Positions 13,454-27,831 of a stretch of 40,603 bases of DNA are shown piece after piece; position 1 is the first letter of the stretch, and every line of letters begins with the position of its first letter. The notes below the pieces were generated by a model. That model saw only the letters and a program-made list of their open reading frames with translations. It made no database searches and was not told where the DNA came from. Made by a program: the position numbers and the translations under genes. This DNA is from a virus: IMG/VR virus record IMGVR_UViG_3300010401_000023, positions 1 to 40,603 of that record; one strand, 5' to 3'.

Positions 13454-13500
13454 CCATTTCAACCCTTAGCCCTCTTATGGAGGGCCTGGGGTTGAGATGG
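13454..13500 (+). promoter_or_regulatory. Large intergenic stem-loop
   Basis: CCATTTCAACCC (13454-13465) pairs with GGGTTGAGATGG (13489-13500), 11 of 12 strict pairs plus one wobble, and encloses GCCCTC/GAGGGC (13469-13474 with 13480-13485, TTATG loop). No U-tract follows, so it is unlikely to be an intrinsic terminator. It could be an mRNA-stability or processing element between the first gene and the tiny genes behind it. Confidence 0.55.
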
Positions 13501-14094: not shown

Positions 14095-14120
14095 ATCAGT
14101 TATTAACAGGAGGGCGAAAG

Positions 14121-14237: not shown

Positions 14238-14268
14238 CAGTTAAAACTCAATTCAAGGAGGGGCGACG

Positions 14269-14448: not shown

Positions 14449-14477
14449 GACTAACCCCAACGGGGCGGGAGGTTCAT

Positions 14478-14546
14478 TTGTTCATCGTTCTTTTTTGCGC
14501 CGTTCTGATAATTTTTGTCGGGGTGAAGTTGTACAAATTCTTTTGA
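14478..14546 (+). CDS. 22-residue membrane micropeptide
   Basis: TTG start behind GGGAGG; the whole peptide is one hydrophobic helix (LFCAVLIIFVGV) with a short basic aromatic end. It lies 12 bases before another membrane protein gene. A good ribosome site and hydrophobicity support it, but the length makes it tentative. Confidence 0.42.
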   Translation: MFIVLFCAVLIIFVGVKLYKFF

Positions 14547-14558
14547 GGGGGTGAAAAG

Positions 14559-14771
14559 TTGCGTCACTTTAATATCGCTTGCATAGTCCTTTTACTGTTT
14601 AAGGTTATTGGTATAGCTTTTGGTTTATTACTTCTTTTTGCTTTGGGTTTTTCGTTGGTGTGTGCTTGGCCCACAATTGAATGGTTAAATGTTGCCGTTG
14701 GATTGTGCGAAGTCGTGGCCGTGGTTTGTTTTATGGGCTTCTTTTTTATTTTGTTCATTTGGGCAGAATAA
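14559..14771 (+). CDS. Two-helix membrane protein
   Basis: 70 residues from a TTG start with GAGGGGG upstream. Two hydrophobic segments (about 7-36 and 44-67) are separated by a short loop with PTIEW, a hairpin topology. It could act on the host membrane early in infection, for example in superinfection exclusion. That role is a guess. Confidence 0.6.
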   Translation: MRHFNIACIVLLLFKVIGIAFGLLLLFALGFSLVCAWPTIEWLNVAVGLCEVVAVVCFMGFFFILFIWAE

Positions 14772-14827
14772 AATTGCTGATAGCTATATCGCAATAATTG
14801 GAAATATTGAATTAGGGAGGTGAGGGA

Positions 14828-15283
14828 ATGAAAAGGAAATGGTATTCAGTTGGGGCCGATTGTGTGTCTTTGAGTTTTGCAATTATATTGGCTGGTGTTG
14901 TGTTCATTAAGGTTGTGGACATGGCAACGAAAAAGGCTTTAGAACGTGATTATGTGGCTCAAAAGTTTTTGGAGGACATACCACATAACACCGAAAAAGC
15001 AAAATCAGAATTTGATGGATTAAAATTTTTTTCGGTGGGTACGAGTGGACTGTATATGGATGATGGACATGAAAAATCATCCATTGACACAAATGAAGAA
15101 CTAAATAACGGAATGGAAGTCAATCCTGACGGTTCAATTCAATTTTGGCATTGGCATGGGGATTGGACTCTAACTGCCACCGATGAACAACCCGTAACAC
15201 TTTCATTTGTTGGTCATGAAGGAGTTACCATTTTAGTTTCCAAAAGCAGACTAAAAATAATTGATAAAAGGAATAAAAAATGA
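14828..15283 (+). CDS. Membrane-anchored protein of unknown function
   Basis: 151 residues with GGGAGG before the ATG. A single N-terminal hydrophobic helix (residues 12-30, SLSFAIILAGVVFIKVV) is followed by a soluble acidic domain with HWHGDWTL and a basic end. It is probably an inner-membrane protein with an exposed domain. The stop overlaps the next start (ATGA). Confidence 0.62.
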   Translation: MKRKWYSVGADCVSLSFAIILAGVVFIKVVDMATKKALERDYVAQKFLEDIPHNTEKAKSEFDGLKFFSVGTSGLYMDDGHEKSSIDTNEELNNGMEVNPDGSIQFWHWHGDWTLTATDEQPVTLSFVGHEGVTILVSKSRLKIIDKRNKK

Positions 15284-15456
15284 ACCTCTTAAAATTGCTT
15301 AACCTTCGGCTGGTCAAGTTTGGCGATATGGTGGGAGTGACGGATAGCGAGGGCGGGAGCTATAGCCGGTCATGGTTTACTTGGGATCACGATTGCCCCG
15401 CTTTTATGCGTAAAGCCAAGAGAGAAGCGGACTTAGCAAACGTCAAAATTAGCTGA
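15280..15456 (+). CDS. Small hypothetical protein
   Basis: 58 residues whose ATG overlaps the upstream stop by four bases, implying coupled translation. The pattern GDMVGVTDSEGGSYSRSWFTWDHDCPAFMRKAKREA shows a short beta hairpin and then a helix. No known family. Confidence 0.55.
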   Translation: MNLLKLLNLRLVKFGDMVGVTDSEGGSYSRSWFTWDHDCPAFMRKAKREADLANVKIS

Positions 15457-15527
15457 TTATTTGGTTGACATTTTTTTAGTTAAAAATTATTATTCCGAAT
15501 GTATCCCAATTAAGGAGAATTAAAACG

Positions 15528-15692
15528 ATGGCGAAAGACAAAAGAAAAAGTAGCTCGGTGAGTTTAAATTTTAGCCCCGATGAACTGGCTAAGTATGAAG
15601 CGGAGAGGCAAAAGGAGATCAAGAAAAAGGGCCTCAACGTAACTTGGAAAGAGTTTTTCATTATCCTGTTATCGGAAAGGGAGGCTCAATGA
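15528..15692 (+). CDS. Ribbon-helix-helix-like small protein
   Basis: 54 residues, AAGGAG before the ATG. A short strand (SVSLNFS), a helix (PDELAKYEAERQKEI) and a second helix (TWKEFFIILLSERE) fit a ribbon-helix-helix DNA-binding protein of the CopG/Arc type. It overlaps the Sak4-like gene by four bases (ATGA), so it may control the recombination module. The fold is inferred from pattern. Confidence 0.55.
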   Translation: MAKDKRKSSSVSLNFSPDELAKYEAERQKEIKKKGLNVTWKEFFIILLSEREAQ

Positions 15693-16600
15693 GTTTCCTA
15701 AATCAAGTCACGGAAGGCAAAATCTCGGAGCCGATTTTCGCCCTGCTTTATGGAGTGCCGGGTATCGGAAAATCCACCACAGTTTCAGAGGCTTCTAACC
15801 CGCTGTTCTTTGGGGATGCAAAAGAATCATCTCATTTGAAGGTGGCGAGGTTGCCGGAGCCTAAAACTTTCCTTGAGTGCAAAGAGCAGATCAAGGAACT
15901 AATCGAAGCCAAGGGCCTCAAGTTTAAAACTTTGGCGGTTGACAATTTGGCGTGGCTCGAAACTCTCATTTGGAAAGAGGTTTGTGCCGAATGGAACAAG
16001 CTCACCATCGAGTCAATTGGATATGGGAAGGGGTACAAGGAGGCGGTCAACAAGCACGTTGAATTTGCTTCTCTCCTTTCGGACCTTCGCCAAAAGCAGG
16101 GGATGGATATTGTCATCATCGGACATTCCAAAATTAAAACCTTTCAAGACCCGACCTTAACCAGCGGTTATGATCGCTACCAGCTTTCTATCAATGAGGA
16201 AGCGGCGAGTGTTTGGTATCGCTCGGTTGATGCGGTCTTGTTTATGAATTATGAGGTCTTGAAGGTATCGGATGATGATAAGAGGGCGCAAGGCTCCGGC
16301 GTTAGGGTGATGTACACCCAGGAGAGGCCATCATTCCAAGCCAAGAACCGCTATGGCCTTCCTTTCCGTATGGTGATGCCCAAGGGCGAAGCGTGGAAAG
16401 CTCTCAAGGATGCCATTAAGTCGGGTGAGCCAGAGGGGGCCGAAACCCTGATTAACGAGATCGAGGGCTTGAAGATCAACGTTAAAGACCCGGCGATTCT
16501 CGAAAAGGTTTCCAAAAGCGTTTTGGATGCAAAAAAAGATACCGTTAAACTCACGGCGATTAAAGACCGCCTTATCAATCTAATCGGAGGAATGAAATAA
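15689..16600 (+). CDS. Sak4-like AAA_24 P-loop ATPase (recombination)
   Basis: 303 residues. Walker A is GVPGIGKST at 22-30, Walker B is LAVDN at 82-86, and a strand IVIIGHSK follows at about 135-142, as in the AAA_24 (Sak4-like) RecA-related ATPases of phages. These promote single-strand annealing or strand exchange with an SSB. I chose the ATG at 15689 (GGGAGG six bases before), not a start 45 bases upstream. The next two genes, an SSB-like protein and a YqaJ nuclease, overlap it in series and complete the module. Confidence 0.82.
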   Translation: MSFLNQVTEGKISEPIFALLYGVPGIGKSTTVSEASNPLFFGDAKESSHLKVARLPEPKTFLECKEQIKELIEAKGLKFKTLAVDNLAWLETLIWKEVCAEWNKLTIESIGYGKGYKEAVNKHVEFASLLSDLRQKQGMDIVIIGHSKIKTFQDPTLTSGYDRYQLSINEEAASVWYRSVDAVLFMNYEVLKVSDDDKRAQGSGVRVMYTQERPSFQAKNRYGLPFRMVMPKGEAWKALKDAIKSGEPEGAETLINEIEGLKINVKDPAILEKVSKSVLDAKKDTVKLTAIKDRLINLIGGMK

Positions 16601-17100
16601 TGGAGGACAAGCGAGTTATCCAAGCGGGGCATTATATCGGGGCGATTGACGATTATGGAATTTCCACGAACCAAAAGGGGGATGCCCAGGTTTTTATCAA
16701 GTTCAAGATCAATAAAGGAGAGGGCCAAGGCTACGCCGATTTGATTTGGTTCGGAAGCTTGTCAGACAAGAAGAAGCCGGAAGCGAAGAAGTCACCAGCC
16801 CAATACACCATTTCAACACTCTTGGATTGCGATTTTTCGGGCCAAGAGGTCGAGGATATGGCGGGGGGGCCAGCCAATGAGGTCTTGCGCCTGGGTAAAG
16901 AAATGGCCTTGGAGATTGAGGACAACCAATACAACGACAAGTTGACCAGCCGAATTAAGTGGGTCAACATCATTGGGGCTGGTGGAGTCAAGCGGGTCAG
17001 CAAGGAAGAATTGACGGGTAAAACCAATACTTCCGCTTTAAGGGCGATGCTCTTGAAGGAAAAAGAAACCCGCCCCCCCACCGAGGACGTTGGGTTTTGA
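16600..17100 (+). CDS. SSB-like single-stranded DNA-binding protein
   Basis: 166 residues, start overlapping the Sak4-like stop (TAATG). The N-terminal 120 residues have the alternating beta pattern of an OB-like fold (AGHYIGAIDDYGISTNQKGD, VFIKFKI), though no strict SSB signature. The C-terminus is flexible and ends TEDVGF, reminiscent of the acidic DDIPF tip that bacterial SSBs use to recruit partners. Position between a Sak4-like ATPase and an exonuclease supports an SSB role. Confidence 0.68.
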   Translation: MEDKRVIQAGHYIGAIDDYGISTNQKGDAQVFIKFKINKGEGQGYADLIWFGSLSDKKKPEAKKSPAQYTISTLLDCDFSGQEVEDMAGGPANEVLRLGKEMALEIEDNQYNDKLTSRIKWVNIIGAGGVKRVSKEELTGKTNTSALRAMLLKEKETRPPTEDVGF

Positions 17101-17708
17101 GGTTCATTCAATTAGAGCAGGGAACCGATGAGTGGCACAAGTGGCGCAAGGAGGGCATAGGGGCCAGCGAAGCCCCTATGATCCTTGGGATAAGCAAGTA
17201 CAAAACAGCGCACAAACTTTGGCAAGAAAAGTCCGGCATCATCGAGGACAAGAACGAAACTAATTTTATCTTTGAGAAGGGCAAGGAGATCGAAGCGAAG
17301 GCCAGGGCATACTTTGAACTTATGAACGACAAAGATTGCCCTCCCGTATGCGTGGAAATGGATGAATTTCCATTTATACGGGCCTCCTTGGATGGTTACA
17401 ACGCCCAAGAGAACTTCGCTCTAGAGATCAAATATGTGGGTAAGGATGCGATGGAGGATGCAATTCCACCGCACCACATAGCCCAACTTCAACATCAAAT
17501 GATGGTTTGTAATGCCAAGGACATAATTTACATTCGATCAAATGATGGGAAGGTTTTTAAAAACGATGTTGTGAAGCGGGATGATGAGTACATTAAGAAT
17601 TTGCTAATGGATGAACAGGCTTTTTGGAATATGGTTCAAGAGGGTATTGAACCCCCCTTGCCAGAAAAGAAGCCCAGGAAAAAGAGAGAAGCAAAGCCTA
17701 AAAAGTAG
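17097..17708 (+). CDS. YqaJ-type viral exonuclease
   Basis: 203 residues from a TTG start that overlaps the preceding stop by four bases. The start GTDEWHKWRKEGIGASEAPMI matches the YqaJ/lambda-exonuclease family, and the PD-(D/E)XK residues can be placed at D99 (SLDGY), E110 and K112 (LEIKY), followed by HIAQLQHQM, also typical. It should resect double-stranded ends to give single strands for the Sak4-like protein. The C-terminus is very basic (KKPRKKREAKPKK). Confidence 0.87.
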   Translation: MRFIQLEQGTDEWHKWRKEGIGASEAPMILGISKYKTAHKLWQEKSGIIEDKNETNFIFEKGKEIEAKARAYFELMNDKDCPPVCVEMDEFPFIRASLDGYNAQENFALEIKYVGKDAMEDAIPPHHIAQLQHQMMVCNAKDIIYIRSNDGKVFKNDVVKRDDEYIKNLLMDEQAFWNMVQEGIEPPLPEKKPRKKREAKPKK

Positions 17709-17736
17709 TTCTTTAAATAACCTTTGCGGGGGTTAT

Positions 17737-17982
17737 ATGACACAAATCCAGTTGGACTTTTCAAATATCAATAAGACTATGACGCAAGAGGAATGGTGTC
17801 TTTTCCAATTAAGCAAAGGGGTTGAATTGACCCCAATGCTTGCGTTGGAAGGGTGCGGGTGTTTTAGGCTGTCGGAGCGCATACGCCGCCTAAAACTCAA
17901 GGGCCATGTAATTGATAACGTCCAAGAGGAAAGGGGGACGGTTTATGCGGTGTATGTGTTGAGGGAAGGATTTAACGATTAG
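17737..17982 (+). CDS. HTH_39-like winged-helix protein
   Basis: 81 residues. The segment LSKGVELTPMLALEGCGCFR followed by LSERIRRLKLKGHVI fits the phage HTH_39 domain (LTxxxALxxxGCxRLxxRIxxLRxxGH), and the end GTVYAVYVL is the wing strand. GGGGG lies close to the ATG. It is probably a small DNA-binding regulator or a replication accessory. Confidence 0.72.
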   Translation: MTQIQLDFSNINKTMTQEEWCLFQLSKGVELTPMLALEGCGCFRLSERIRRLKLKGHVIDNVQEERGTVYAVYVLREGFND

Positions 17983-17991
17983 GGGGAAGGT

Positions 17992-18366
17992 ATGTACTTA
18001 AAGACGGAGTTTTCAAATGATGATTTGGGAACGTGCATGGAGAACAATTCAACCGATTTGTTCAAGTACGAAGATGTGGAGGCTTTGATTGCGGAGATAC
18101 CAGGCCACAATGACGAAGATGAATGGTTTTGGATCGGGAAGCTCAAGGATGGCCGCTTCTTTGGGGCCAGAGGCGGTTGCGACTATACCGGATGGGACTG
18201 CCAATCACATTGTAGCTATTGGGTTGCTCCGACAGCCGAGGAAGCCCTAAAGGGCTTTGAAAAAGTGGCCGATTGGCAACGTATACCAGCCGGAGAAATT
18301 GTCCAACTGCGGGCGCAATTAGACGAAAAACAACCGTTTGGGATGGGCGTAACCGTTACGCCTTAA
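17992..18366 (+). CDS. Hypothetical phage protein
   Basis: 124 residues, acidic N-terminus and a central motif GKLKDGRFFGARGGCDYTGWDCQSHCS, a pattern I recall from uncharacterised phage proteins. Three Cys lie within 12 residues. GGGGGAAGG precedes the ATG. No function can be given. Confidence 0.65.
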   Translation: MYLKTEFSNDDLGTCMENNSTDLFKYEDVEALIAEIPGHNDEDEWFWIGKLKDGRFFGARGGCDYTGWDCQSHCSYWVAPTAEEALKGFEKVADWQRIPAGEIVQLRAQLDEKQPFGMGVTVTP

Positions 18367-18380
18367 TAAAGTAATGGTCA

Positions 18381-18392
18381 TTATGCAATTAA
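18381..18392 (+). repeat. Inverted copy of the intergenic TTAATTGCATAA element
   Basis: TTATGCAATTAA is the exact reverse complement of the 12-base core found at 21165-21176 and 21724-21735. It lies just before the ribosome site of the next gene. Confidence 0.55.
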
Positions 18393-18402
18393 GGGGGATG
18401 CG

Positions 18403-18864
18403 TTGAAAACAAAAGTTAAATTCGTAAACGAAATTACGGGCAGAGAGTTCGACAACGAAAAAGACGCTCTTATGTCGGAAGCATCCAGTATTTCGATTGC
18501 CTCAATTTTTAGGTTTTGGAAACAACCCAAAGAGGCAAAACATTCGTGCGATTTTGACAATTGGAACTGGTGCTATCAAAGAACAAAAGAAGACCTGGAT
18601 GCCCTAACCACGGCCATTATACGGGCCGTTAACCTTCACGAACCCTGGATAGCGGAGCAGTACAAAAAAGAAGGTGGAATCAAGCCCGAACACGTCAACG
18701 CCCTATTTATGTTGGGGCGTTATTTGGATGATGGTAACTCCGAAATCAGGAAGTGGCTTTCGATCCACACTTGTATTTGCCCAACGTGTTTTCGTCAATA
18801 CGGCCAAATTTATTACGCCACACATTGTGCGCACGATGGGAAGATTCACACTAGGGTGATATAG
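18403..18864 (+). CDS. Hypothetical protein with a C-terminal Cys/His cluster
   Basis: 153 residues from a TTG start behind AAGGGGG. Residues 60-110 are helical. The last 35 residues contain HTCICPTC, a tyrosine-rich strand and HCAHDGKIH, which could bind one zinc. No family was recognised. Confidence 0.62.
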   Translation: MKTKVKFVNEITGREFDNEKDALMSEASSISIASIFRFWKQPKEAKHSCDFDNWNWCYQRTKEDLDALTTAIIRAVNLHEPWIAEQYKKEGGIKPEHVNALFMLGRYLDDGNSEIRKWLSIHTCICPTCFRQYGQIYYATHCAHDGKIHTRVI

Positions 18865-18895
18865 CAGTAATCCAACTTATCGAATGTGAGGCAGA

Positions 18896-19363
18896 ATGAA
18901 GCCAATTTTAGATGTGGCTTGTGGTAGTCGAATGTTTTGGTTTGATCGCCAAAATCCAAATGCCGTATTTGGTGACATTCGGAAAGAAAGTCATGTTTTG
19001 TGTGACGGTAGGGCATTGGAAATAAGCCCCGATTTGGTCATGGACTTCAAGAACATTCCGTTTGCCGATGGCACTTTTAAGTTGGTGGTGTTTGACCCGC
19101 CACACCTAAAAGCGGCCGGAAAGAATGGCTGGCAAGCCAAAAAGTACGGGGTCTTGGGTTTTGATTGGAAGAACGACTTAAAGCGTGGAGTTGATGAATG
19201 TTTTAGGGTTTTGGACAATCATGGCGTTTTGATTTTCAAGTGGAATGAACACTCTTTGAAGGTGTTCGAGATATTAAACGCCATTCAAAGAACACCGCTT
19301 TTTGGGCATAGGACAACGCAGAACGGAAAGACGGTTTGGCTGACGTTTATGAAGTGTGCATAA
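18896..19363 (+). CDS. Small SAM-dependent methyltransferase
   Basis: 155 residues, a class I Rossmann methyltransferase. Motif I is ILDVACGSRMFWF (4-16), followed by AVFGDIR (motif II region), and motif IV is FDPPHL (about 67-72). The DPPH motif suggests an amino-group target, as in N6-adenine or related enzymes. The protein is short and lacks an obvious target-recognition domain. In phages such enzymes often protect DNA from host restriction. The substrate is not decided by the sequence. Confidence 0.75.
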   Translation: MKPILDVACGSRMFWFDRQNPNAVFGDIRKESHVLCDGRALEISPDLVMDFKNIPFADGTFKLVVFDPPHLKAAGKNGWQAKKYGVLGFDWKNDLKRGVDECFRVLDNHGVLIFKWNEHSLKVFEILNAIQRTPLFGHRTTQNGKTVWLTFMKCA

Positions 19364-19531
19364 GAGCGTATATCGCTGGTCTGGGGGCGGTGAATATCAG
19401 GGGTTATAACCCTGTTAGTGTGCCTCATAAGCAACTACTCAACCTTGTGGCCCTAAGCCTCAAGCTCTTGGTTCATCGCTCCGAGGCCAGCTTATCGCTA
19501 GTCATCGTTACCAAAAATTGAAGGAGGGAAT
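19364..19531 (+). other. Intergenic stretch with a short hairpin
   Basis: 168 bases without a convincing gene. CAGGG/CCCTG (19398-19402 with 19410-19414) forms a five-pair stem with a seven-base loop GTTATAA, which looks like an anticodon arm, but no D or T arm can be found around it. GAAGGAGGG at the end is the ribosome site for the next gene. Confidence 0.4.
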
Positions 19532-19759
19532 ATGGCGGCCAAGGTCAAGAATGAGATTGAGAAGTTAGTCGAATGGCTGGAACTGGAAGCTAGACGCTAC
19601 ACAGTAAAAAATCCATACGGTCTCAAAGTGAAAATGGATCAAAGCCAAGTGCGCCGAAGGCTTCGGAAGCTGGTGAGGGTTAGTTACGCTTTGGCTAGGT
19701 TATATAATCCGCAACAAGGGGCGATTGAGTTTAAAGATAGATATGGGATTTTGCCATGA
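19532..19759 (+). CDS. Small basic helical protein
   Basis: 75 residues, AAGGAGGG before the ATG. Helical and basic (QVRRRLRKLVRVSYALARL), so nucleic-acid binding is possible. No family was recognised. Its stop overlaps the next start (ATGA). Confidence 0.62.
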   Translation: MAAKVKNEIEKLVEWLELEARRYTVKNPYGLKVKMDQSQVRRRLRKLVRVSYALARLYNPQQGAIEFKDRYGILP

Positions 19760-20016
19760 CCCACTCGGAACTGTCCATCGTGAAGGAAGCAAGGGAACTG
19801 CTGTTGGATGTTAGGGCCTATGGGGAAAACGATAAATGGCGAGACCGTTGGGATGCTTGGTTAGAGTCCGCCGAGTCCCTTCTGGCCCAGGAGGAAGGGA
19901 AGGAAAAATGTGAAGAATGTAATGGCGCAAAAGGTCAATGGCTTGAGTCTGCCAGTAATATAAACGCCACATGGTGCGAGTGTAAAACTTGCCACGGTAC
20001 GGGCCTCAAGCCCTAG
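19756..20016 (+). CDS. DnaJ-type zinc-finger-like protein
   Basis: 86 residues. After a helical start (SELSIVKEARELLLDVRAYG) the C-terminus has CEECNGAKG and CKTCHGTG, which match the CxxCxGxG knuckles of the DnaJ zinc finger, here one pair only. No J domain is present. It could bind an unfolded protein or act as a small zinc ribbon. Confidence 0.66.
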   Translation: MTHSELSIVKEARELLLDVRAYGENDKWRDRWDAWLESAESLLAQEEGKEKCEECNGAKGQWLESASNINATWCECKTCHGTGLKP

Positions 20017-20071
20017 CCACGATTGCGGCGAGGGTGTAAAGAATAGCGATTACTGCGATAAGGAGAGTCAC

Positions 20072-20392
20072 TTGAAAAAGGAATCAAAGACTCACTTTGT
20101 AAAAATTTACATGAGTGGGCCAATAGAAGAAGCGAAGCAGATTATCAGAAAAGAATGTCTAGAAGAAGGGCTTTGCGTGAATGTCCGAAAAACGGACTAT
20201 GTTTATACGGGCGGCGAGGAAACCGGATTCGTAGTTGAACTTTTAAACTATCCGAGATTTCCGATAACTCCAAAAGCACTAGAGGACAGGGCGTCTAAAT
20301 TAGCAATCAAGCTGTTAGATGGCACTTTTCAACATTCCGTTCTTTTGATGGGGCCTATTAAAACAACTTGGATTTCAAAGAGGAGACAATGA
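20072..20392 (+). CDS. Hypothetical protein
   Basis: 106 residues from a TTG start with AAGGAGAG upstream. The alternating pattern HFVKIYMSGPIEEAKQIIRKECLEEGLCVNVRKTDYVYTGG and GFVVELLNYP suggests an alpha/beta ferredoxin-like fold. Its stop overlaps the next gene start (ATGA). No family was recognised. Confidence 0.62.
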   Translation: MKKESKTHFVKIYMSGPIEEAKQIIRKECLEEGLCVNVRKTDYVYTGGEETGFVVELLNYPRFPITPKALEDRASKLAIKLLDGTFQHSVLLMGPIKTTWISKRRQ

Positions 20393-21168
20393 AAGTCCTA
20401 AGTTTCGGTGGTGGTATGCAGACCGTGACACTCGCAACCATGTGTTGCCTGGGTGATTTTGAAATGCCGGATTTTGCGGTATTCGCTGACACCCAATGGG
20501 AAACAAAGTCAACCTACGATTATTTGAAGTGGTTTATTCCTTGGGCAGAAGAAAAGGGCTTGAAAATTTTAAACAAAACGAAGGGAGACATTCGAGCTGA
20601 TGCCCTGTCTACATCGAAGCGATTCGCTTCGATGCCTTTGTGGACTAAAAACGGGCTTCAAAAAGGAGCCTTGCGCCGTCAATGTACCAATGAATACAAA
20701 ATCCAGGTGGTTCAAAGGGCCATTCGGGATATGGCGGGAGTGGAAAAAGGCAAGCGGTGGAAAGGTGATCCCGCCGAGGTGTGGATTGGAATATCCACCA
20801 ACGAAGCTCAACGCATGAGCGAAAGCCAAGATAAGTGGGTGGTTCATCGTTGGCCGTTAATTGAGAAGCGCATGAACCGCCACGATTGCCAGCGGTATTT
20901 AGAAGCCCATGACGTTCCCATACCGCCCAAAAGTGCGTGTATTGGATGTCCGTTTCACGATAACACCTACTGGCGCAGATTGAAGCAGGAAGCCCCCGAA
21001 GAATGGAAAAACGCTGTGGACTTCGATGAGAAGGTGCGTAAAACCAGGGCGGCGATTAAATCACCCGTATTTCTTCATCCGTCTTTAGTTCCGTTGGGTG
21101 AGGCGAACATTGGCGAGGATCAGGTGGACTTGTTTATGAACGATTGCAAGGGGTTTTGTGGAGTTTAA
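20389..21168 (+). CDS. PP-loop (PAPS-reductase-like) family protein
   Basis: 259 residues. The N-terminus KVLSFGGGMQTVTLATM is a variant of the SGGxDS PP-loop used by PAPS reductases, ATP sulphurylase-like and tRNA-thiolation enzymes, with Asp replaced and a GGG run. FADTQWETKSTYDYLKWFIPW follows, as in this family. The C-terminal part has CIGCPFHDNTYW and a final CKGFCG, possible iron-sulphur or zinc ligands. The start at 20389 has AGGAG four bases before it. The substrate is unknown. Roles in sulphur transfer or DNA/nucleotide modification are possible, and the neighbouring methyltransferase would fit the latter. Confidence 0.72.
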   Translation: MKVLSFGGGMQTVTLATMCCLGDFEMPDFAVFADTQWETKSTYDYLKWFIPWAEEKGLKILNKTKGDIRADALSTSKRFASMPLWTKNGLQKGALRRQCTNEYKIQVVQRAIRDMAGVEKGKRWKGDPAEVWIGISTNEAQRMSESQDKWVVHRWPLIEKRMNRHDCQRYLEAHDVPIPPKSACIGCPFHDNTYWRRLKQEAPEEWKNAVDFDEKVRKTRAAIKSPVFLHPSLVPLGEANIGEDQVDLFMNDCKGFCGV

Positions 21169-21195
21169 TTGCATAACGTAATTTATCGAAAGGTT
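21163..21195 (+). repeat. Intergenic repeat motif, copy 1
   Basis: GTTTAATTGCATAA-N6-TTATCGAAAGGTT; an identical frame of conserved bases occurs at 21722-21754. It starts on the stop codon of the PP-loop gene and ends where the 22-bp helix of the RNA candidate begins. Confidence 0.6.
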
Positions 21196-21391
21196 AGCCC
21201 TTGGTGGTTTGGGTGAAAAGAAACGGCGGATAGGGTATCCACTCCCGATTCCAACACTCACGGATTAGACGGGGAATTGTTGCTGACGCAAGCCCAACGC
21301 TGTCAGACAGGCCGACCGGTGGCCTTAGCGAAACACGACTCAAGCGACTTGGGCAGGAAGCCGTCCTAATTCATCTGAACCACCAAGGGTT
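21196..21391 (+). ncRNA. Candidate structured RNA closed by a 22-bp helix
   Basis: Bases 21196-21217 can pair without a break with 21370-21391: a perfect 12-bp core (CCCTTGGTGGTT at 21198-21209 with AACCACCAAGGG at 21378-21389), extended on both sides with Watson-Crick and G.U pairs, which point to RNA rather than a DNA palindrome. Inside lie ACGGC/GCCGT (21223-21227 with 21360-21364), a 7-bp stem (21246-21252 with 21273-21279), CTGAC/GTCAG (21283-21287 with 21302-21306), whose loop GCCCAA (21292-21297) can form a pseudoknot with TTGGGC (21349-21354), and GGCC/GGCC (21310-21313 with 21321-21324). No open frame uses the region. Strand is assumed from the flanking genes. It matches no RNA family I know. 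Confidence 0.62.
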
Positions 21392-21420
21392 CACTTAAGT
21401 AATTTATTGGGGGTATCGAG

Positions 21421-21720
21421 ATGGCGGACTTCGTTTTAAGAAAACTGTTTGAAACACTCAAAAGTATCGACAAGGTTCCGCACTCTCATTTTTATACTTC
21501 TGCCATACCTTTTGAGGATGGTTGTCCGGCGTGTCAATCCAAGTTAGCAGTTTATGAACAAATAGAATTTAGGCTTGGCCCCGAAAAACAACCACAAAGC
21601 CTAGAGCAGTTTGAAAAGTTGATAAATAACAACCCACTAGACCACATGATTTTTATGATGGGGCGAAAGGCTGAAAGGGAAAAGATTAACAGGGAGCAAA
21701 ATCGCTTAAATTTGATTTAA
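21421..21720 (+). CDS. Hypothetical protein behind the RNA candidate
   Basis: 99 residues, GGGGG before the ATG. Helical, with one CPAC motif near residue 37 and a charged end (GRKAEREKINREQNRL). No family was recognised. It starts 30 bases after the RNA helix closes, so the RNA could control it in cis. Confidence 0.6.
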   Translation: MADFVLRKLFETLKSIDKVPHSHFYTSAIPFEDGCPACQSKLAVYEQIEFRLGPEKQPQSLEQFEKLINNNPLDHMIFMMGRKAEREKINREQNRLNLI

Positions 21721-21721
21721 G

Positions 21722-21754
21722 GTTTAATTGCATAAGACTTGTTATCGAAAGGTT
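21722..21754 (+). repeat. Intergenic repeat motif, copy 2
   Basis: Same 14-base and 13-base conserved blocks with a 6-base spacer as at 21163-21195, here ending as the ribosome site region four bases before the ATG of the next gene. Confidence 0.6.
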
Positions 21755-21758
21755 GGAA

Positions 21759-21962
21759 ATGACAGATAAAGAAACCGCAGATTATTTGAGGGAATACATT
21801 AAAAGCGGAAAGCGTGGCGGTCCTTTTGGTTGGCCCACCGACCCATGCGGTTACGACCAACATATTAAGTTTGTGGAGTACAGAAATAAGGAGTGGGCTG
21901 ATTGTGGTTTAACATGGGACAAGTTTGTTCTTAATTGGGCCGATAGACTCGACCCGAAGTAA
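21759..21962 (+). CDS. Small hypothetical protein
   Basis: 67 residues from the ATG at 21759, with GAAAGG upstream as part of the repeat motif. Rich in Trp, Asp and Lys (RGGPFGWPTDPCGYDQHIKF), acidic end. An alternative TTG lies two codons earlier. No family was recognised. Confidence 0.6.
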   Translation: MTDKETADYLREYIKSGKRGGPFGWPTDPCGYDQHIKFVEYRNKEWADCGLTWDKFVLNWADRLDPK

Positions 21963-21995
21963 TTCATATTCTCGAAAGCCCGATAGGAGGGACGG

Positions 21996-22211
21996 ATGGC
22001 CCGAAGTGAGAAGCCGTTCACAAACGATAAAATTCACCATGTCAACTGCCCGAAAATACAGGCTTGGGATTGTGGCGAAGAAGAAGGGATTAGGTGTCAA
22101 TGTCCTCAAGGATGGCCCAAAAGCGCAAGGGCTTGGAAAGAGTGGTATCTGAAAAAGAAGCCGATCTATGAACCTTATGACGGTGGTTTAGGTGATTTCG
22201 TAAAAGATTAA
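21996..22211 (+). CDS. Small hypothetical protein with Cys pairs
   Basis: 71 residues, AGGAGG five bases before the ATG. It contains HHVNCPKIQAWDCGEEEGIRCQCP, four Cys within 20 residues, which might bind zinc, and a Trp/Lys-rich end. Function unknown. Confidence 0.58.
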   Translation: MARSEKPFTNDKIHHVNCPKIQAWDCGEEEGIRCQCPQGWPKSARAWKEWYLKKKPIYEPYDGGLGDFVKD

Positions 22212-22230
22212 CCTAATTCGGGAGGGCGGG

Positions 22231-22284
22231 ATGGCGAACAAGTCCGAAAGCATACCTGACATTTTAGATTGGAGTAAGAAATGA
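22231..22284 (+). CDS. 17-residue upstream micro-ORF
   Basis: GGAGGGCGGG lies just before the ATG, and the stop overlaps the next gene start by four bases (ATGA). The peptide is polar (MANKSESIPDILDWSKK). It probably serves to couple translation into the Lar-like gene. Confidence 0.42.
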   Translation: MANKSESIPDILDWSKK

Positions 22285-22838
22285 GCGAAAAGAATGAACT
22301 GTTGCCTTGCCCGTTTTGTGGCGGTCCAGCACATTCGGGAAGTGATTTTGTTGAGTGTACTAAGTGCGGAGCTTATTTTGGAGGCGAAGAAAAATCAGAT
22401 GAGGCAAAACTTGAACGCCTTCTGGCTTGGAACCGCCGAACTCCCGCCCACTCGCCCACGGGAACCATCGGAGCCATTGACGGGGATAAGTTGAAGTCGG
22501 AATTAGAATCCATGTGGAAAGAATACGGCGAAGCTAATGCCAATTATCATCAACGGGCCATTAGTGCTGTGATTGAGAAAATTGAATCAGGCCAATTTTC
22601 CGCCCACTCGCACGAAGGGGATTTAACGCCGAAAATCAGTCCACGAATACAGGGCGAAGTCGAAGGGGCAATCGAAGTTCTTTGTACCCATAAGGCCGTC
22701 AAGGACACCCTTTGGATGCCGGGAAGCGGTTCTGAAACGATGGTTGATTGGCTCATTAACCTTGAAGGCGAACTTGGATTTGATACCAAGTCCATCGAGG
22801 AAAAAGTTTTGAATTGTGATTTCGGCGTGAAGCAGTAA
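22281..22838 (+). CDS. Lar-like zinc-ribbon (restriction-alleviation) protein
   Basis: 185 residues. The N-terminus LLPCPFCGGPA...FVECTKCGAYFGG...AWNRR is the Lar-type restriction-alleviation pattern, with a four-Cys zinc ribbon at 9, 12, 26 and 29. The C-terminal 120 residues are helical, acidic and not typical of Lar, which is usually shorter. Lar modulates type I restriction. With the nearby methyltransferase and PP-loop protein it may form an anti-restriction set, which is inference. Confidence 0.7.
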   Translation: MSEKNELLPCPFCGGPAHSGSDFVECTKCGAYFGGEEKSDEAKLERLLAWNRRTPAHSPTGTIGAIDGDKLKSELESMWKEYGEANANYHQRAISAVIEKIESGQFSAHSHEGDLTPKISPRIQGEVEGAIEVLCTHKAVKDTLWMPGSGSETMVDWLINLEGELGFDTKSIEEKVLNCDFGVKQ

Positions 22839-22886
22839 CCTTTCGGTAACTTTCAAGAATCTGGCTTATTGAATGTGGGGTAATTC

Positions 22887-23021
22887 ATGTGTACCATTTT
22901 GGTTGAGGCATTAAAAGATTTTAAAAATTATCAAATATATTTAAATTCCATTTGTGGGCCAAGTGAATACTTGTCATTTGTGGCTCGGCACTCCACACTC
23001 GGCATCAATCGAGAGGTATAA
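22887..23021 (+). CDS. Small protein immediately before the integrase
   Basis: 44 residues. The ATG follows GTGGGG, and the stop TAA directly abuts the integrase ATG. Mixed composition (MCTILVEALKDFKNYQIYL), no family recognised. It may provide coupled translation of the recombinase. Confidence 0.45.
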   Translation: MCTILVEALKDFKNYQIYLNSICGPSEYLSFVARHSTLGINREV

Positions 23022-23882
23022 ATGCACCCAATAGTAAATAAAGCCCCCTGGTCGGCGTTTTTAAGCAAATATTCAAGTGAAGATACCATCAATAGCTATG
23101 CCAGCGATCTAGGGCTATTTGAGGCTCACCTTGCAGGGAAGAACCCAATGGAGGCAAGTAAAGCCGATTTAGAGGGCTTCATTACCCAAATGCAGACCAA
23201 GGGCCTCTCGGATCGTACCGCCAGAAGGCGTATGGCTACACTCAAAAAATTCTACCGAAGGCTTGTAAGCCTTGAGCTAATCACCAAAGACCCCACGACC
23301 ATATTCGATGAAATCAAAACGAGGGTTCCGGTAAGAAATCCCAAGGCCCTAACCAAAGAGCAACGCAAGCACCTAGTGTCCAGCCTCAAATGGGATACAG
23401 ATCACCATTGGCACGTCGGCATGAGCGTTTTATTGGGCTACTATTGCGGGTTAAGGCTCAATGAAGTAAGGCTTTTGAAGTGGGCCGATATAGACTTTGA
23501 AAAGAAGCGGTTAAGAACCATTGGCAAGGGCGATAAAGAGGCTTATTTGCCAATTGAGAAAAAACTATGTGAAATCTTGGAAACCTTCAAAGAGAAAAAG
23601 CCCGATACCACATTCGTTTTTGAGGGTAAAAAAGGAAAGCCATTAAGCAGGGGTTGGATAGGTGCGTTTTCCAAAGAGGTCAAAAAGTGGTGTGGGTGGA
23701 CAAGCGATTTTAAGTTCTCATCCCACGTCAACCGACACTCCGGCATAACCCAATTCTACGAGAAAACTAGGGACATTATGCTTACTTCAAAGTTTGCCCG
23801 TCACTCTGGAATTGCTGTAACTCAAGGCTATACGAGGCTGGTAGATGGGGAGATGGAGGCCGCCGCTAGGAAGGTATTCTAG
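23022..23882 (+). CDS. Tyrosine recombinase (integrase, XerC/D-like)
   Basis: 286 residues. A SAM-like N-terminal core-binding domain (1-95) is followed by the catalytic domain with R145 (GLRLNEVR), K169 (TIGKGDKEAYLP), H235-x-x-R238 (HVNRHSG), H261 (ARHSGIAVTQGY) and Y270. All expected residues are present. Length fits simple Xer/integrases rather than the longer lambda type. It could integrate the phage, resolve multimers, or use host dif-like sites. No attachment site or repressor was recognised, so a temperate life style is not proven. Confidence 0.87.
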   Translation: MHPIVNKAPWSAFLSKYSSEDTINSYASDLGLFEAHLAGKNPMEASKADLEGFITQMQTKGLSDRTARRRMATLKKFYRRLVSLELITKDPTTIFDEIKTRVPVRNPKALTKEQRKHLVSSLKWDTDHHWHVGMSVLLGYYCGLRLNEVRLLKWADIDFEKKRLRTIGKGDKEAYLPIEKKLCEILETFKEKKPDTTFVFEGKKGKPLSRGWIGAFSKEVKKWCGWTSDFKFSSHVNRHSGITQFYEKTRDIMLTSKFARHSGIAVTQGYTRLVDGEMEAAARKVF

Positions 23883-23944
23883 TGAGGCGTCCCGATATTT
23901 TCTATCCACTAGACCCGGTGGAATTGGAGGTAGATGATGAGTGA
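23882..23944 (+). CDS. 20-residue micro-ORF after the integrase
   Basis: GTG start sharing one base with the integrase stop (TAGTG). Encodes an acidic peptide (RRPDIFYPLDPVELEVDDE). It ends inside the next gene. Low-confidence coupling ORF. Confidence 0.3.
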   Translation: MRRPDIFYPLDPVELEVDDE

Positions 23945-24071
23945 TCCTTGGTACTCCGCAAGCGATAAAGCCTTTATAAGAGCGCAAAATTACTACGAAA
24001 ATATGACTCCACAAGACGAAGAAGATGATGAAATTATTGACCAAAACCTAGATAATGAGGACGAGGAATGA
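23937..24071 (+). CDS. Small acidic protein
   Basis: 44 residues (or 45 from an adjacent ATG) with GGAGG upstream. The second half is almost entirely Asp/Glu/Asn (DEEDDEIIDQNLDNEDEE), a DNA-mimic-like composition. Its stop overlaps the next gene (ATGA). Confidence 0.55.
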   Translation: MSDPWYSASDKAFIRAQNYYENMTPQDEEDDEIIDQNLDNEDEE

Positions 24072-24301
24072 GCCTCAAATATAAAGACACTTACCCAAAA
24101 CCAAAGCCGATTTTATATCAGGGGCGATGTGGATGCGGTAATGAAATTTGGTCAAAACACGAAGACGCAAAACAATGTTGGCAACCGGGGTGTTCTGAAA
24201 TACAAAGAATCAAAAAATTGGGAAGGTCAAAAAATGCCAAATCTCGATTATCAAAAGTGGCTACCGCAGATATGGAAACAGGAGAGATTGACAGGATTTG
24301 A
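24068..24301 (+). CDS. Small zinc-finger-like protein
   Basis: 77 residues. RCGCGNEIW...KQCWQPGC gives a CxC...CxxxxC pattern for one zinc, followed by a basic helix (RIKKLGRSKNAKSRLSK). The start overlaps the preceding stop, and the end overlaps the nuclease gene by 68 bases in another frame. Confidence 0.6.
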   Translation: MSLKYKDTYPKPKPILYQGRCGCGNEIWSKHEDAKQCWQPGCSEIQRIKKLGRSKNAKSRLSKVATADMETGEIDRI

Positions 24302-24575
24302 GGCCGAATTTAAATTTCATCCCACAAGAAAATGGCGTTTCGATTGGGCTTGGCCCGATATAAAGCTGGCCCTAGAATGTGAGGGGTCGGTGTGGGCTAA
24401 TGGCCGCCATACCAGGGGAAGCGGTTATTTAAAAGATTTAGAAAAATACAATATGGCTATTGAGTATGGCTGGTCAGTTCTCCGCTACGATACCGAAACA
24501 GTTCAAGATTTATCCTTCCTGCCTCAACTCAAGTTTGTCTACAACCGGAGAAAAGATGAAAAAAACAAAAGTTAA
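24234..24575 (+). CDS. Restriction-endonuclease-fold phage nuclease
   Basis: 113 residues from an ATG with GGAAGG upstream. A longer frame to 24129 is not needed. The pattern FHPTRKWRFDWAWPDIKLAL, ECEGSVWANGRHTRGSGYLKD, EKYNMAIEYGWSVLRY is the phage family of small PD-(D/E)XK-type nucleases, with D, E and the following conserved polar residues in place. It sits late in the replication region, where a junction resolvase or end-processing nuclease is common. Confidence 0.76.
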   Translation: MPNLDYQKWLPQIWKQERLTGFEAEFKFHPTRKWRFDWAWPDIKLALECEGSVWANGRHTRGSGYLKDLEKYNMAIEYGWSVLRYDTETVQDLSFLPQLKFVYNRRKDEKNKS

Positions 24576-24732
24576 AACCATTCATCTAGGAAACGTTTTG
24601 GGAGTTCTAAAAAGATCAGGATACAAAGTTAAACCTCACGAAAAAAAGATGCTTCAAGTTATGAAAGACCAATTAAAACGAGAAATGAATGACAAGCAAG
24701 CGGTTGAAAGAGGCCGGTTGGATATATTTTGA
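24556..24732 (+). CDS. Small basic protein
   Basis: 58 residues, CGGAG before the ATG. Strongly basic and helical (GNVLGVLKRSGYKVKPHEKKMLQVMKDQLKREM), probably nucleic-acid binding. It overlaps the end of the nuclease gene by 20 bases. Confidence 0.58.
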   Translation: MKKTKVKTIHLGNVLGVLKRSGYKVKPHEKKMLQVMKDQLKREMNDKQAVERGRLDIF

Positions 24733-24841
24733 TGGCTCATGGCACGATACGAGCGGAAAGTGGCCCTACGAGGACGATCTCACGGAAGAAGAAGCTCTTA
24801 AAATCCAAGAAGCAAGAGAAAACGCTTCCAAAGAATACTAA
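24689..24841 (+). CDS. Overlapping 50-residue protein in another frame
   Basis: It starts with ATG inside the previous gene and runs 50 codons: MTSKRLKEAGWIYFDGSWHD, a WPYEDDL stretch, then LTEEEALKIQEA. Pattern and composition look clearly like a real, acidic phage protein, better than the alternative frame that extends upstream from 24852. The ribosome site is weak, suggesting coupling. Function unknown. Confidence 0.6.
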   Translation: MTSKRLKEAGWIYFDGSWHDTSGKWPYEDDLTEEEALKIQEARENASKEY

Positions 24842-24851
24842 TCTTGGTAAG

Positions 24852-25121
24852 ATGTGCCGTGGCGGTTGTGGGAGAATATTGGATGATCGAAATTCTGGAA
24901 AAGAATACCGCCGAGGCCGTGTTTATATTAAGCCAATTTGTAAAATGTGCAGATCAACAAAAGAACGTGAAATTTATGTGAATGGACGTTGGATTTATTT
25001 TCGTAATTATCGCTTGGCACATTTGGATAAGTACAATTTTTTAAAGAGGGCTTGGGGTTCCAGGAATAGAGCTAAGAAAAATTTAGAGTCCACATATCGG
25101 AGGGCCGCAATTGGGACTTAG
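24852..25121 (+). CDS. Zinc-ribbon protein, HNH-related N-terminus
   Basis: 89 residues from the ATG at 24852. MCRGGCGRIL and IKPICKMCR give two CxxC/CxxxC knuckles, as in the zinc-binding N-termini of some phage HNH proteins, followed by a basic tail (RNRAKKNL). No HNH core is present. A longer frame starting at 24729 would overlap the gene at 24689-24841, and I reject its extra N-terminus. Confidence 0.55.
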   Translation: MCRGGCGRILDDRNSGKEYRRGRVYIKPICKMCRSTKEREIYVNGRWIYFRNYRLAHLDKYNFLKRAWGSRNRAKKNLESTYRRAAIGT

Positions 25122-25974
25122 ACAATTCTCTACGCACACTTGGGTATGGTTTCCCGATATGCACTTCGCTTTCGTTCCCCCTGGGAGTCCCAAGCCGATT
25201 GATCGTCATGATCCAAAAGCCATTTCCGTTGCGATGCAAATTTTAGCCGATATTCGCCCAGATAGTTTTGGACAGGTTGGAGACTTGGCCCACCTGGGCT
25301 ACCTTTCCCATTGGGCTGTGGGGCGGGATATGCAGGGCAAAGTTCCGGCCCAAGATGGCGAATCCGTTGCCATGAATATCGAGAACGATAACAATGGCAT
25401 TAACCGTTGGCTAGATCAGACCGAAAGAATCCTACCCAAGAAGTGCGAGAAGTATCAACTAGAAGGCAACCACGAAGAAATCCTACGCAATTCCCGCCAG
25501 ATGAATAAATTCCAAGGATGGGTAACGAAAGACTGGTATCCCGAAAAGGCGTGGGTGTTAGACGAGCGAAAGATTAAGTGGGTTCCATATCAAAGCTACA
25601 ATGCGGTTGGTGGTAAAAATTGGGTAGATTGTGGAAGGCTAAAGATTTTCCACGGTCACTATGCCTCAAGCAATCATCTTAAAAAACACTTTGAAGATCA
25701 CGGTGGGTCTGGTGGATATGGTCATCTGCATACCGTGGCCGAAGAAACATTTAAACATGGTCAATTTCCAGCAACTGTATTTACTTTTGGTTGTTTATGT
25801 GCCAGGGAAGCCTCATACCACAGGGGCCGAAATAACGCTTGGGCGCAAGCCATGTTAGAGGTATATGTCCAGCCAAGCGGTCAATTCAATCATCAAATTA
25901 TACGCATAATCAATGGTCAAGCGATTCGTAATGGAAAAGTCTATAACGCTAAGCCTTTAAAGGGGTTGGAATGA
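25111..25974 (+). CDS. Metallophosphoesterase
   Basis: 287 residues from a TTG start with GGAGG upstream. All five calcineurin-type metal motifs can be seen: D16-x-H18 (FPDMHF), D58 (VGDLAH), N120-H121 (EGNHEE), H181 (FHGHY) and H205-x-H207 (YGHLHT). Phage members of the family are thought to act on nucleotides or nucleic acids. The last 65 residues form an add-on domain that is duplicated as a separate gene directly downstream. Confidence 0.84.
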   Translation: MGLRQFSTHTWVWFPDMHFAFVPPGSPKPIDRHDPKAISVAMQILADIRPDSFGQVGDLAHLGYLSHWAVGRDMQGKVPAQDGESVAMNIENDNNGINRWLDQTERILPKKCEKYQLEGNHEEILRNSRQMNKFQGWVTKDWYPEKAWVLDERKIKWVPYQSYNAVGGKNWVDCGRLKIFHGHYASSNHLKKHFEDHGGSGGYGHLHTVAEETFKHGQFPATVFTFGCLCAREASYHRGRNNAWAQAMLEVYVQPSGQFNHQIIRIINGQAIRNGKVYNAKPLKGLE

Positions 25975-26183
25975 ATCGAATACCAGCTTTTACATTTGGC
26001 TCTCCGTGTTCAAATAAAGCCACATACCAAAGAAACGAGAATAATACTTGGAAACAATCCATGTTCGTTATATACGTTGAATCCAATGGCAAGTTCAACC
26101 ATTCCATAATCCACGTTATTGACGGGCAAGCCATGTGGAACGGGAAACTGTATTCAGCCAAGTCATTGAAAGGACTAGAATGA
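25971..26183 (+). CDS. Stand-alone duplicate of the metallophosphoesterase tail
   Basis: 70 residues. Residues 7-70 match residues 224-287 of the preceding metallophosphoesterase at 36 of 64 positions, including FTFG, YV, FNH, GQA, NGK and LKGLE at the end. The catalytic part is missing. The ATG overlaps the upstream stop (ATGA). This is a partial tandem duplication that has diverged and is probably still translated. Confidence 0.75.
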   Translation: MNRIPAFTFGSPCSNKATYQRNENNTWKQSMFVIYVESNGKFNHSIIHVIDGQAMWNGKLYSAKSLKGLE

Positions 26184-26419
26184 GCTATTCATGCGGTCAC
26201 TCTAAAAAACATCATAAGGGCCAGCTTGGTTGCCAATGTAAAGTAGACTTGACACCGGCTTATGACGGTAGGCAACGATGGGGATTATGCCCTTGCATGG
26301 GAACGGGTGATGGAAAGTGCGTGAAGGTAACGGAAGGTAAAATGAAGGTCAACAAAGATGGATGGACACAAGATAATGGCGGTAACATAGCCCCAAGGTT
26401 TATTTTACAGTTGATTTAA
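26180..26419 (+). CDS. Last early gene, Cys-rich protein
   Basis: 79 residues, start overlapping the preceding stop (ATGA). Cys-rich front (SYSCGHSKKHH, GCQCK, CPCMGTGDGKC), likely zinc-binding, with a basic middle. The stop codon shares the TTAA at 26416-26419 with the last late gene on the other strand. Confidence 0.6.
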   Translation: MSYSCGHSKKHHKGQLGCQCKVDLTPAYDGRQRWGLCPCMGTGDGKCVKVTEGKMKVNKDGWTQDNGGNIAPRFILQLI

Positions 26420-26913
26420 GGTATTACAGAGACTTGAACGCCCAATAGAGGGGCATCCCAAGGGGTAAAGAAGTCGGTCCATTTAAGCGGTTGCCAGATA
26501 CCAGTCCCCATTACCACGTTATCAAACAAATTCCAATCCACGTTTACCCCCGCACCGTACCCACTCACACCAGCATCTAATCCGAAATCGAATAAATAAA
26601 ACCACCTTAGACCGGCATAAAACGATGGCTTGCTTATCCCGATCATCGAAGCCCCCAACAATGGGTCATGCGAGAAACCAATGTTAAAAACTTGAGGCTC
26701 CCAGGTCGGTAATTGGGCGTACCACGAAGCGGAATGATTCAGCTTTGTAGTAGATTTACTACCATCGCCATATCCAACTGTTAAATTTCGATAATGCCCC
26801 GACAGTTGGGTTATTGGAATATCGGAATGTTTAAAAGCGGGAGAGGCACACCCCGAAAGGAGGGCGGTGGACAGGGCAAATCCCATCCACCGCAGAGAGG
26901 GCATGAATATCAA
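26416..26913 (-). CDS. Phage-encoded lipoprotein
   Basis: 165 residues. Residues 4-22 form a signal peptide ending in the lipobox LLSGC with lipidated C22. The mature part is rich in Gly, aromatic and Ser residues with alternating hydrophobic stretches (SFYAGLRWFYLFDFGLDAGV), resembling a small beta-barrel or outer-membrane protein. It is the last gene of the lysis cassette and may act as a spanin-like or superinfection-exclusion lipoprotein. The start is TTG at 26913, overlapping the previous stop as TTGA, or ATG at 26904. Confidence 0.72.
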   Translation of the reverse strand: MIFMPSLRWMGFALSTALLSGCASPAFKHSDIPITQLSGHYRNLTVGYGDGSKSTTKLNHSASWYAQLPTWEPQVFNIGFSHDPLLGASMIGISKPSFYAGLRWFYLFDFGLDAGVSGYGAGVNVDWNLFDNVVMGTGIWQPLKWTDFFTPWDAPLLGVQVSVIP

Positions 26914-27188
26914 ACGGTAGGAGGCGGGGGAGGAACGGCGGAGGGTTCCGTAACGTCAGGCTGATACGGGATACCAACCAATTTAGTGATGGCCCCAAGC
27001 AAGGTATTGACCCAAGGCGTGTGTTCAAATAGGGAGGCCACAGCCCCAAGCACCAATCCGGCAGAGGCTTTATCCATCGTGCCAGCCGTACTCGCATCAA
27101 ACAGAAATCCATTCTGCCAGAGCGCATACAACCCGCCGAGAATTGCCAGCATCTTTCCAACAACATACATCGGAGTCTGCTTATTCAT
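26910..27188 (-). CDS. Small membrane protein, possible holin
   Basis: 92 residues, ATG overlapping the transglycosylase stop (ATGA). Two hydrophobic segments (about 7-31 and 42-72) with a short polar loop and a Pro-rich C-terminus. Size, topology and place beside cell-wall enzymes suit a class II or III holin, but no holin signature exists. Confidence 0.55.
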   Translation of the reverse strand: MNKQTPMYVVGKMLAILGGLYALWQNGFLFDASTAGTMDKASAGLVLGAVASLFEHTPWVNTLLGAITKLVGIPYQPDVTEPSAVPPPPPTV

Positions 27189-27745
27189 TGAATCTCCCCC
27201 TCTTTGAATTTTCCTTTAAACCACTCTAACTTATTGCCAACTTCTTCTAGGTAATCATCGGCAATCTCACGCTTTTCCCCATTCGTGCGCCAATGACAGC
27301 CTATCCGCCACGTTTTTACCGCTTCTTCAATAGAACTAGATTTTACCATGTGACAAAAACGTTGGGCAAGCCATTTGTTTAGAACTTGAGGATGGTGCAT
27401 TACCCACGCTTCTGGGTAGGCTATAACGCCATGCTCCCGCAATAATCGTCTAATTAAAGGCCAATAGCCCCCGCAATATCCTGCCCCAAAGTCGTTATCT
27501 ATGAAGTTTAGGCTTGTTTCTTGGATGCAGATGGCCGTATAGACTTCCATCATGCCCTCATCGTGACCACACCCCTCCCACGTTGACCAGCAGAAATCAA
27601 GCACTTCCGCTTGGGGTATACCCGGATTAAGATGATGGGAGGCCCGCCACACGGCATGAGAATAGATGCCGAATTGGTCTATTTCTAGATTCTGATTGGC
27701 TGAAACTGGGATTGCCAGTAGGAACACCAGCAGTAGGAACTTCAA
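27185..27745 (-). CDS. Secreted lytic transglycosylase-like endolysin
   Basis: 186 residues from the TTG at 27745, giving a clean Sec signal (KFLLLVFLLAIPVSA, cleavage near residue 16). An earlier TTG at 27820 would ruin it. The mature part has the transglycosylase pattern with candidate catalytic E76 in TAICIQETSLNF, followed by FGAGYCGGYWPLI. Cys residues suggest disulphides. Export by the Sec pathway means it could act without a classic holin. It is translationally coupled to the micro-ORF upstream (TTGA). Confidence 0.72.
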   Translation of the reverse strand: MKFLLLVFLLAIPVSANQNLEIDQFGIYSHAVWRASHHLNPGIPQAEVLDFCWSTWEGCGHDEGMMEVYTAICIQETSLNFIDNDFGAGYCGGYWPLIRRLLREHGVIAYPEAWVMHHPQVLNKWLAQRFCHMVKSSSIEEAVKTWRIGCHWRTNGEKREIADDYLEEVGNKLEWFKGKFKEGEIQ

Positions 27746-27831
27746 ACGGATAGGTGCGCCAGGAAGATCACGAAAAGCATAAGGCCCACACATCCAGCAC
27801 AGATTAAGAAGGTCTGCCAATATACGCTCAT
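27742..27831 (-). CDS. 29-residue membrane micropeptide between the two lysins
   Basis: ATG overlaps the M15 endolysin stop (ATGA), and its own stop overlaps the transglycosylase TTG (TTGA). The peptide is one hydrophobic helix (FLICAGCVGLMLFVIFLA). Fitting exactly between two lysis genes with overlaps at both ends makes translation very likely. It could be a pinholin-like or antiholin peptide. Confidence 0.58.
   Translation of the reverse strand: MSVYWQTFLICAGCVGLMLFVIFLAHLSV

Follow-up and report, generated by a model that had tools for sequence, protein, structure and literature searches.

We find that an intergenic element in the early operon of IMG/VR viral record IMGVR_UViG_3300010401_000023 is closed by a long helix, P1, and our analysis supports P1 as a real RNA-level helix on the transcribed strand, one without a known family. 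P1 consists of 22 continuous pairs (21196-21217/21370-21391), of which 18 are Watson-Crick and four are G.U, with no mismatches. We propose, with a confidence that falls a little short of even, that the element may act in cis as a double-stranded punctuation stem, a site of RNase III-like processing within a polycistronic early mRNA of the phage. An earlier, sequence-only reading of this DNA is partly confirmed by our results: the RNA helix is real, but the interior that it encloses had been over-interpreted.

In the window, by which we mean the whole 40.6 kb stretch of DNA that was analysed (G+C 46%), the - strand carries structural and packaging genes and the + strand an early operon. The early operon encodes a DnaC-like helicase loader, a Sak4-like annealing protein and a RecE/YqaJ-type exonuclease, together with a PAPS-reductase-like protein, a Lar-like protein and an integrase. 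The element is located between the PAPS-reductase-like gene and a gene for a 99-aa orphan (Table 1). Elsewhere in the window, an inverted motif (CAATTGAGAACGGTTCTCA and variants) is repeated three times in tandem at a 17-nt spacing (12578-12631) within a 1-kb AT-rich gap (12053-13101), an arrangement that resembles an operator or origin repeat array. Tandem 10-nt repeats (GGGAAGTGAAGTGAAGGTAA) at 11684-11736 lie within the gene for a 244-aa Lin1244-like replication protein, and a protein with a long PT-rich repeat stretch is encoded at 29953-30882 among tail or late genes.

Table 1. Features of the element, its neighbours and two further stems of the early operon (positions in the window)
Feature	Position	Strand	Remarks
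Upstream gene	20368..21168	+	PAPS-reductase-like protein, 266 aa
Leader motif, copy 1	21163..21195	+	contains PAPS-reductase stop codon and SD-like CGAAAGG; abuts P1
Flanking direct repeat, left copy	21178..21188	+	GTAATTTATCG; p 0.007 vs shuffled flanks
P1 imperfect outward extension, 5' side	21191..21195	+	pairs with 21392-21396, one mismatch
P1 5' arm	21196..21217	+	AGCCCTTGGTGGTTTGGGTGAA; mean pair probability 0.99 for 21197-21217
Enclosed 152-nt region	21218..21369	+	predicted stems not better than shuffles (z -0.15)
P2 5' strand	21223..21227	+	ACGGC; pairs with GCCGU 21360-21364 across a 5x5 internal loop; predicted, mean pair probability 0.98
GCCCAA	21292..21297	+	predicted nested helix with 21349-21354, probability 0.84
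TTGGGC	21349..21354	+	nested partner of GCCCAA
P2 3' strand	21360..21364	+	GCCGU; predicted
P1 3' arm	21370..21391	+	TTCATCTGAACCACCAAGGGTT
P1 imperfect outward extension, 3' side	21392..21396	+	
Flanking direct repeat, right copy	21399..21409	+	GTAATTTATTG; p 0.007 vs shuffled flanks
Downstream gene	21421..21720	+	99-aa orphan; SD GGGGG at 21409-21413
Leader motif, copy 2	21722..21754	+	ribosome-binding leader of ORF starting ATG 21759
Second intergenic element	19375..19491	+	21-position closing helix 19375-19395/19471-19491 (16 Watson-Crick, 4 G.U, 1 mismatch)
Third intergenic element	13454..13500	+	long simple hairpin 13454-13475/13479-13500 (17 Watson-Crick, 3 G.U of 22)

The closing helix and the region it encloses

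Among helices with arms 80-320 nt apart, P1 is the top continuous helix of the window (22 pairs, score 49). P1 exceeds both maxima from twelve dinucleotide shuffles of the whole window, namely 17 pairs and, separately, a score of 40. When G.U and A.C count the same, in a strand-symmetric scan, P1 reaches 46 and the best of 40 shuffles 40. The non-Watson-Crick pairs of P1 are without exception G.U on the + strand (A.C = 0). The sequence-only reading had described a perfect 12-bp stem growing to 22 continuous pairs including G.U, and this description holds exactly (core CCCTTGGTGGTT, 21198-21209). As a whole, the element folds to -79.3 kcal/mol (z -4.8), and none of 300 shuffles is as stable.

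This excess stability lies wholly in P1, because the enclosed 152 nt fold no better than shuffles. Folded alone, the interior has a minimum free energy of -43.6 kcal/mol where shuffles average -43.0, and it is equalled by 127 of 300 shuffles; smaller interior sub-regions have z from -0.2 to +0.75. The at least four inner stems described earlier therefore do not stand out from shuffled sequence. In addition, the strands GCCCAA and TTGGGC, previously read as a loop-loop pseudoknot, are predicted to form an ordinary nested helix of six pairs in the minimum-energy fold. Given that forbidding this helix costs 5.5 kcal/mol, a pseudoknot is unnecessary and we dropped it. The interior may still be structured, since folding energy is silent on tertiary structure. 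The case of P1 illustrates how far single-sequence folding can mislead: although the closing helix is real, the attractive inner architecture is what a random sequence of the same composition yields.

Without excess stability in the interior, the proposed architecture of a riboswitch, ribozyme or trans-acting RNA is not supported either. For a riboswitch, we find no + strand terminator, and the predicted partner of the SD of the next gene (21409-21413) is not the element but 21429-21432, within the coding sequence of that gene, so that there is no visible expression platform. We also considered a retron ncRNA, which has a1/a2 inverted repeats and an adjacent reverse transcriptase. There is no reverse transcriptase among the scanned proteins, and the neighbours of the element are the PAPS-reductase-like gene and small orphans.

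Other expectations about this locus fared better. No frame of at least 60 codons with a start crosses the element, and in the six frames the longest stop-to-stop stretches are 50-59 codons. Codon scores of the element's frames are at the non-coding level, with the exception of the 50-codon + frame 21217-21366, whose score of 0.079 is intermediate (coding mean 0.186, null -0.097). With that one qualification, the six-frame and codon-usage tests bear out the claim that no open frame explains the region. A TTG-started 10-codon frame (MVVWVKRNGG, then a stop) runs across the P1 5' arm at 21202-21234 and is a possible leader peptide. The suggested Rfam scan likewise agrees with the absence of a known family: in Rfam 15 no covariance model matches at its gathering score, none matches at E<=10 around the element and none at E<=1 across 10500-28300. 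ARAGORN finds no tRNA or tmRNA in the element, and no promoter-like or + strand terminator-like site was found near it. The element does directly follow a repeated motif, as had been noted; this 33-nt leader block recurs, 82% alike, before the next-but-one gene. Lastly, the statement that this is the only 250-bp gap is strictly true, as 252 nt is the largest gap in that part of the operon. However, a 168-nt gap 1.8 kb upstream, absent from the earlier account, is also strongly structured (z -5.5).

Further stems in the operon and searches for homologues

The 168-nt gap (19364-19531) holds a second intergenic element, and the z given for it refers to 19365-19502, where 0/300 shuffles are as stable. 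This region separates a methyltransferase-like gene from a 75-aa ORF and has a 7-bp direct repeat, TATCGCT, at 19371-19377 and 19493-19499. A third element, measured over 13450-13504 (z -6.1, 0/300 shuffles), begins right past the stop codon of a 115-aa ORF and ends just 5' of the next SD. It is not an ordinary terminator, because no T run follows. In a strand-neutral scan of the whole window, the top three helices are 13454-13500, 19375-19491 and 21196-21391, all of them in + strand early-operon gaps and each followed, 20-40 nt downstream, by a start codon that has an SD. Early-operon gaps make up 6% of the window, and the naive chance of finding all three top helices there is about 2e-4. Considered alone, neither the second nor the third stem surpasses the maxima of whole-window shuffles, and they are notable by position only. 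In the same scan, discrepancies in the three stems comprise 11 G.U versus 3 A.C on the transcribed strand, compared to 10 versus 17 in the next seven helices. This G.U excess (one-sided p about 0.03) suggests, if modestly, selection on RNA pairing. The two larger elements have the inner closing pairs GGTGAA/TTCATC in common and differ in the remainder, so we do not call them one family.

Searches for the element in other genomes returned nothing similar in 50,697 phage records or in plasmids. When viral contigs were searched for three exact DNA patterns, the matches were no more than chance-like: 98 stretches for CTTGGGCAGGAAGCC, two for CCTTAGCGAAACACGA and, for the P1 arm, 16 contigs, none of which has the inverted partner. 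Weak matches (L108/L177 and L157) were set aside, as they had been picked through a shared search pattern and have no helix. At 80 PAPS-reductase loci (35-43% identity), blastn, nhmmer and a covariance model found no such RNA nearby. A single-sequence covariance model of the element, R1, scores only the element itself above noise. It also scores the element's own reverse strand and, at E 0.09, the 13450-13504 hairpin, because the model responds to any long helix. To find relatives of the virus, we used several of its proteins as queries. Portal and major capsid protein gave no matches, the integrase gave only remote ones, and one genome match, at 24% identity, was too distant. The terminase identified three IMG/VR contigs (L183-L185; 73-74% identical), the sole relatives found. 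They are 8-28 kb fragments in which the genes for capsid, portal and helicase loader are syntenic. These contigs have neither the PAPS reductase nor the element, and their early regions differ or stop short of the locus. Because they are fragments, the absence of the element proves nothing. The terminase frame (7719-8624, - strand) and a 283-aa ORF (8341-9192) on the same strand overlap by 284 nt within 7719-9192, and both are conserved with these three contigs.

Alternative explanations

We weighed four other accounts of the element. A stand-alone structured ncRNA, either trans-acting or part of an RNP, would have its ends tied by P1 and would use the 33-nt leader block as an upstream signal. 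The element is a G+C island with sharp AT-rich flanks (55%, the 98th percentile of the window, and 57% in the interior, against 30% and 38% in the flanks and 46% in the genome). It is non-coding and, flanked by two leader blocks, sits where a gene would be expected. An RNA of this kind is nevertheless somewhat unlikely given that its interior is no more stable than shuffles, that neither a promoter-like site nor a terminator was found for it, and that it has no homologue and no Rfam match at the E<=10 threshold. Foreign base composition could also mark a MITE-like insertion, with P1 and its outward extension as terminal inverted repeats. Here an 11-bp direct repeat (10/11; consensus GTAATTTATYG), 2 bp outside the extended inverted repeat 21191-21217/21370-21396, would be the target-site duplication (p 0.007). 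Without the insert and one of the repeats, the flanking genes would be 31 nt apart, as is usual for gaps in this operon, and the empty site would read as such a gap with a single GTAATTTAT. The direct repeat thus fits an insertion, but it also fits a duplicated ribosome-binding leader, which we favour a little because the left block matches the other leader copy for 7 bases past the repeat (CGAAAGGTT). Furthermore, there is one copy in the genome, plasmids have no match, the viral contigs with the arm lack its inverted partner, and all four arm discrepancies are G.U on one strand. We consider an insertion unlikely.

The short TTG-started frame raises the question of a cis-regulatory leader of the 99-aa gene, either a riboswitch or a leader-peptide attenuator in which translation through the P1 5' arm would open P1. 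An SD-like CGAAAGG lies 8 nt before the TTG, and P1 buries both in the prediction. However, ten codons behind a TTG make a weak case, there is no terminator, the downstream SD has no alternative partner in the element and is predicted to pair within the coding sequence of its own gene, and the downstream 99-aa gene is an orphan without a metabolic link. Such a leader is very improbable. It is also quite improbable that the element has no RNA function, being either an inverted repeat that arose by chance or what is left of a decayed gene. The interior shows no structure beyond that of shuffles, one 50-codon frame scores between coding and non-coding, and conservation could not be demonstrated, all of which would fit. 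Against this, P1 lies beyond all shuffles, and gaps of the operon hold all three of the strongest helices.

Proposed processing and known systems

We favour a punctuation stem because P1 beats all shuffles and because the top three helices sit in operon gaps close to an SD, and also because the site is non-coding, has no promoter-like or terminator-like site nearby and resembles RNase III substrates. RNase III stems present about two turns of near-continuous double-stranded RNA on the transcript, and P1 offers 22 continuous pairs. On the transcript, the PAPS-reductase stop codon would be followed by the leader block, P1 closing the 152-nt domain, and the SD and start of the next gene. We infer that the element is transcribed through, that it is cleaved and that cleavage affects expression. 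In this model, host RNase III or another endonuclease specific for double strands would cleave the two-turn helix, which would split the upstream from the downstream message and may release a fragment of about 150-200 nt. The structured or short ends left behind would then set the stability and translation of the messages, and the stems 19375-19491 and 13454-13500 would act likewise in the same operon. Several points count against a punctuation stem: no homologue was found, the G.U excess is only suggestive, the second and third stems stand out by position only, a processing site would need no apical domain as large as 152 nt, and the flanking direct repeat fits an insertion equally well. A bolder proposal is that the element represents a new phage RNA class, a domain of about 196 nt tied by the 22-bp helix, which would be released from the early operon, would have its own function in takeover or mRNA control and would be one of at least three structured intergenic elements. 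This we regard as decidedly unlikely.

Bacterial MITEs (for example, MITEAba12; PMC6382973) are like the element in being about 200 bp long and non-coding, with near-terminal inverted repeats and a possible flanking duplication. They differ from it in that no second copy was found here and the arm differences are all G.U on one strand. The large ornate RNAs GOLLD and ROOL (PMC12286853) are likewise phage-associated structured non-coding RNAs, but they are hundreds of nucleotides long, conserved and in Rfam, where the element has no match. DicF RNA, from the dicA-dicF-dicB prophage operon and an RNase III substrate (PMC2777011), is similarly a non-coding region between phage-derived operon genes. 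DicF is released by RNase III-type processing, whereas release is only proposed here, and it differs in size and structure and shows no sequence match (no Rfam match). In Staphylococcus aureus, the cspA leader forms a 32-bp almost perfect helix that is an RNase III substrate (PMC3386247). Like P1, this helix is long, nearly perfect and followed by a coding region; it lies in a 5' leader and was tested experimentally, whereas P1 is intergenic and predicted.

Helices between genes offer a further comparison. The early transcript of phage T7 is cut at several stems of this kind. In bacteria, long near-perfect intergenic helices are typical RNase III substrates, for instance at rplL-rpoB, rpsO-pnp, dicA-dicF-dicB and metY-nusA (PMC2777011). 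The stems at rpsO-pnp, rplL-rpoB and metY-nusA, like those of T7, share with our element a long imperfect helix on the transcribed strand between two genes. RNase III intergenic stems also resemble it in being located just 5' of a ribosome-binding site and in occurring several per operon. They have a small loop, compared to the 152 nt enclosed by P1, whose cleavage is a proposal. If the three stems are indeed processing sites, this unclassified phage would punctuate its early operon with long double-stranded RNA stems, in the manner of some known phages and operons, and a discrete RNA would be freed from the largest of them.
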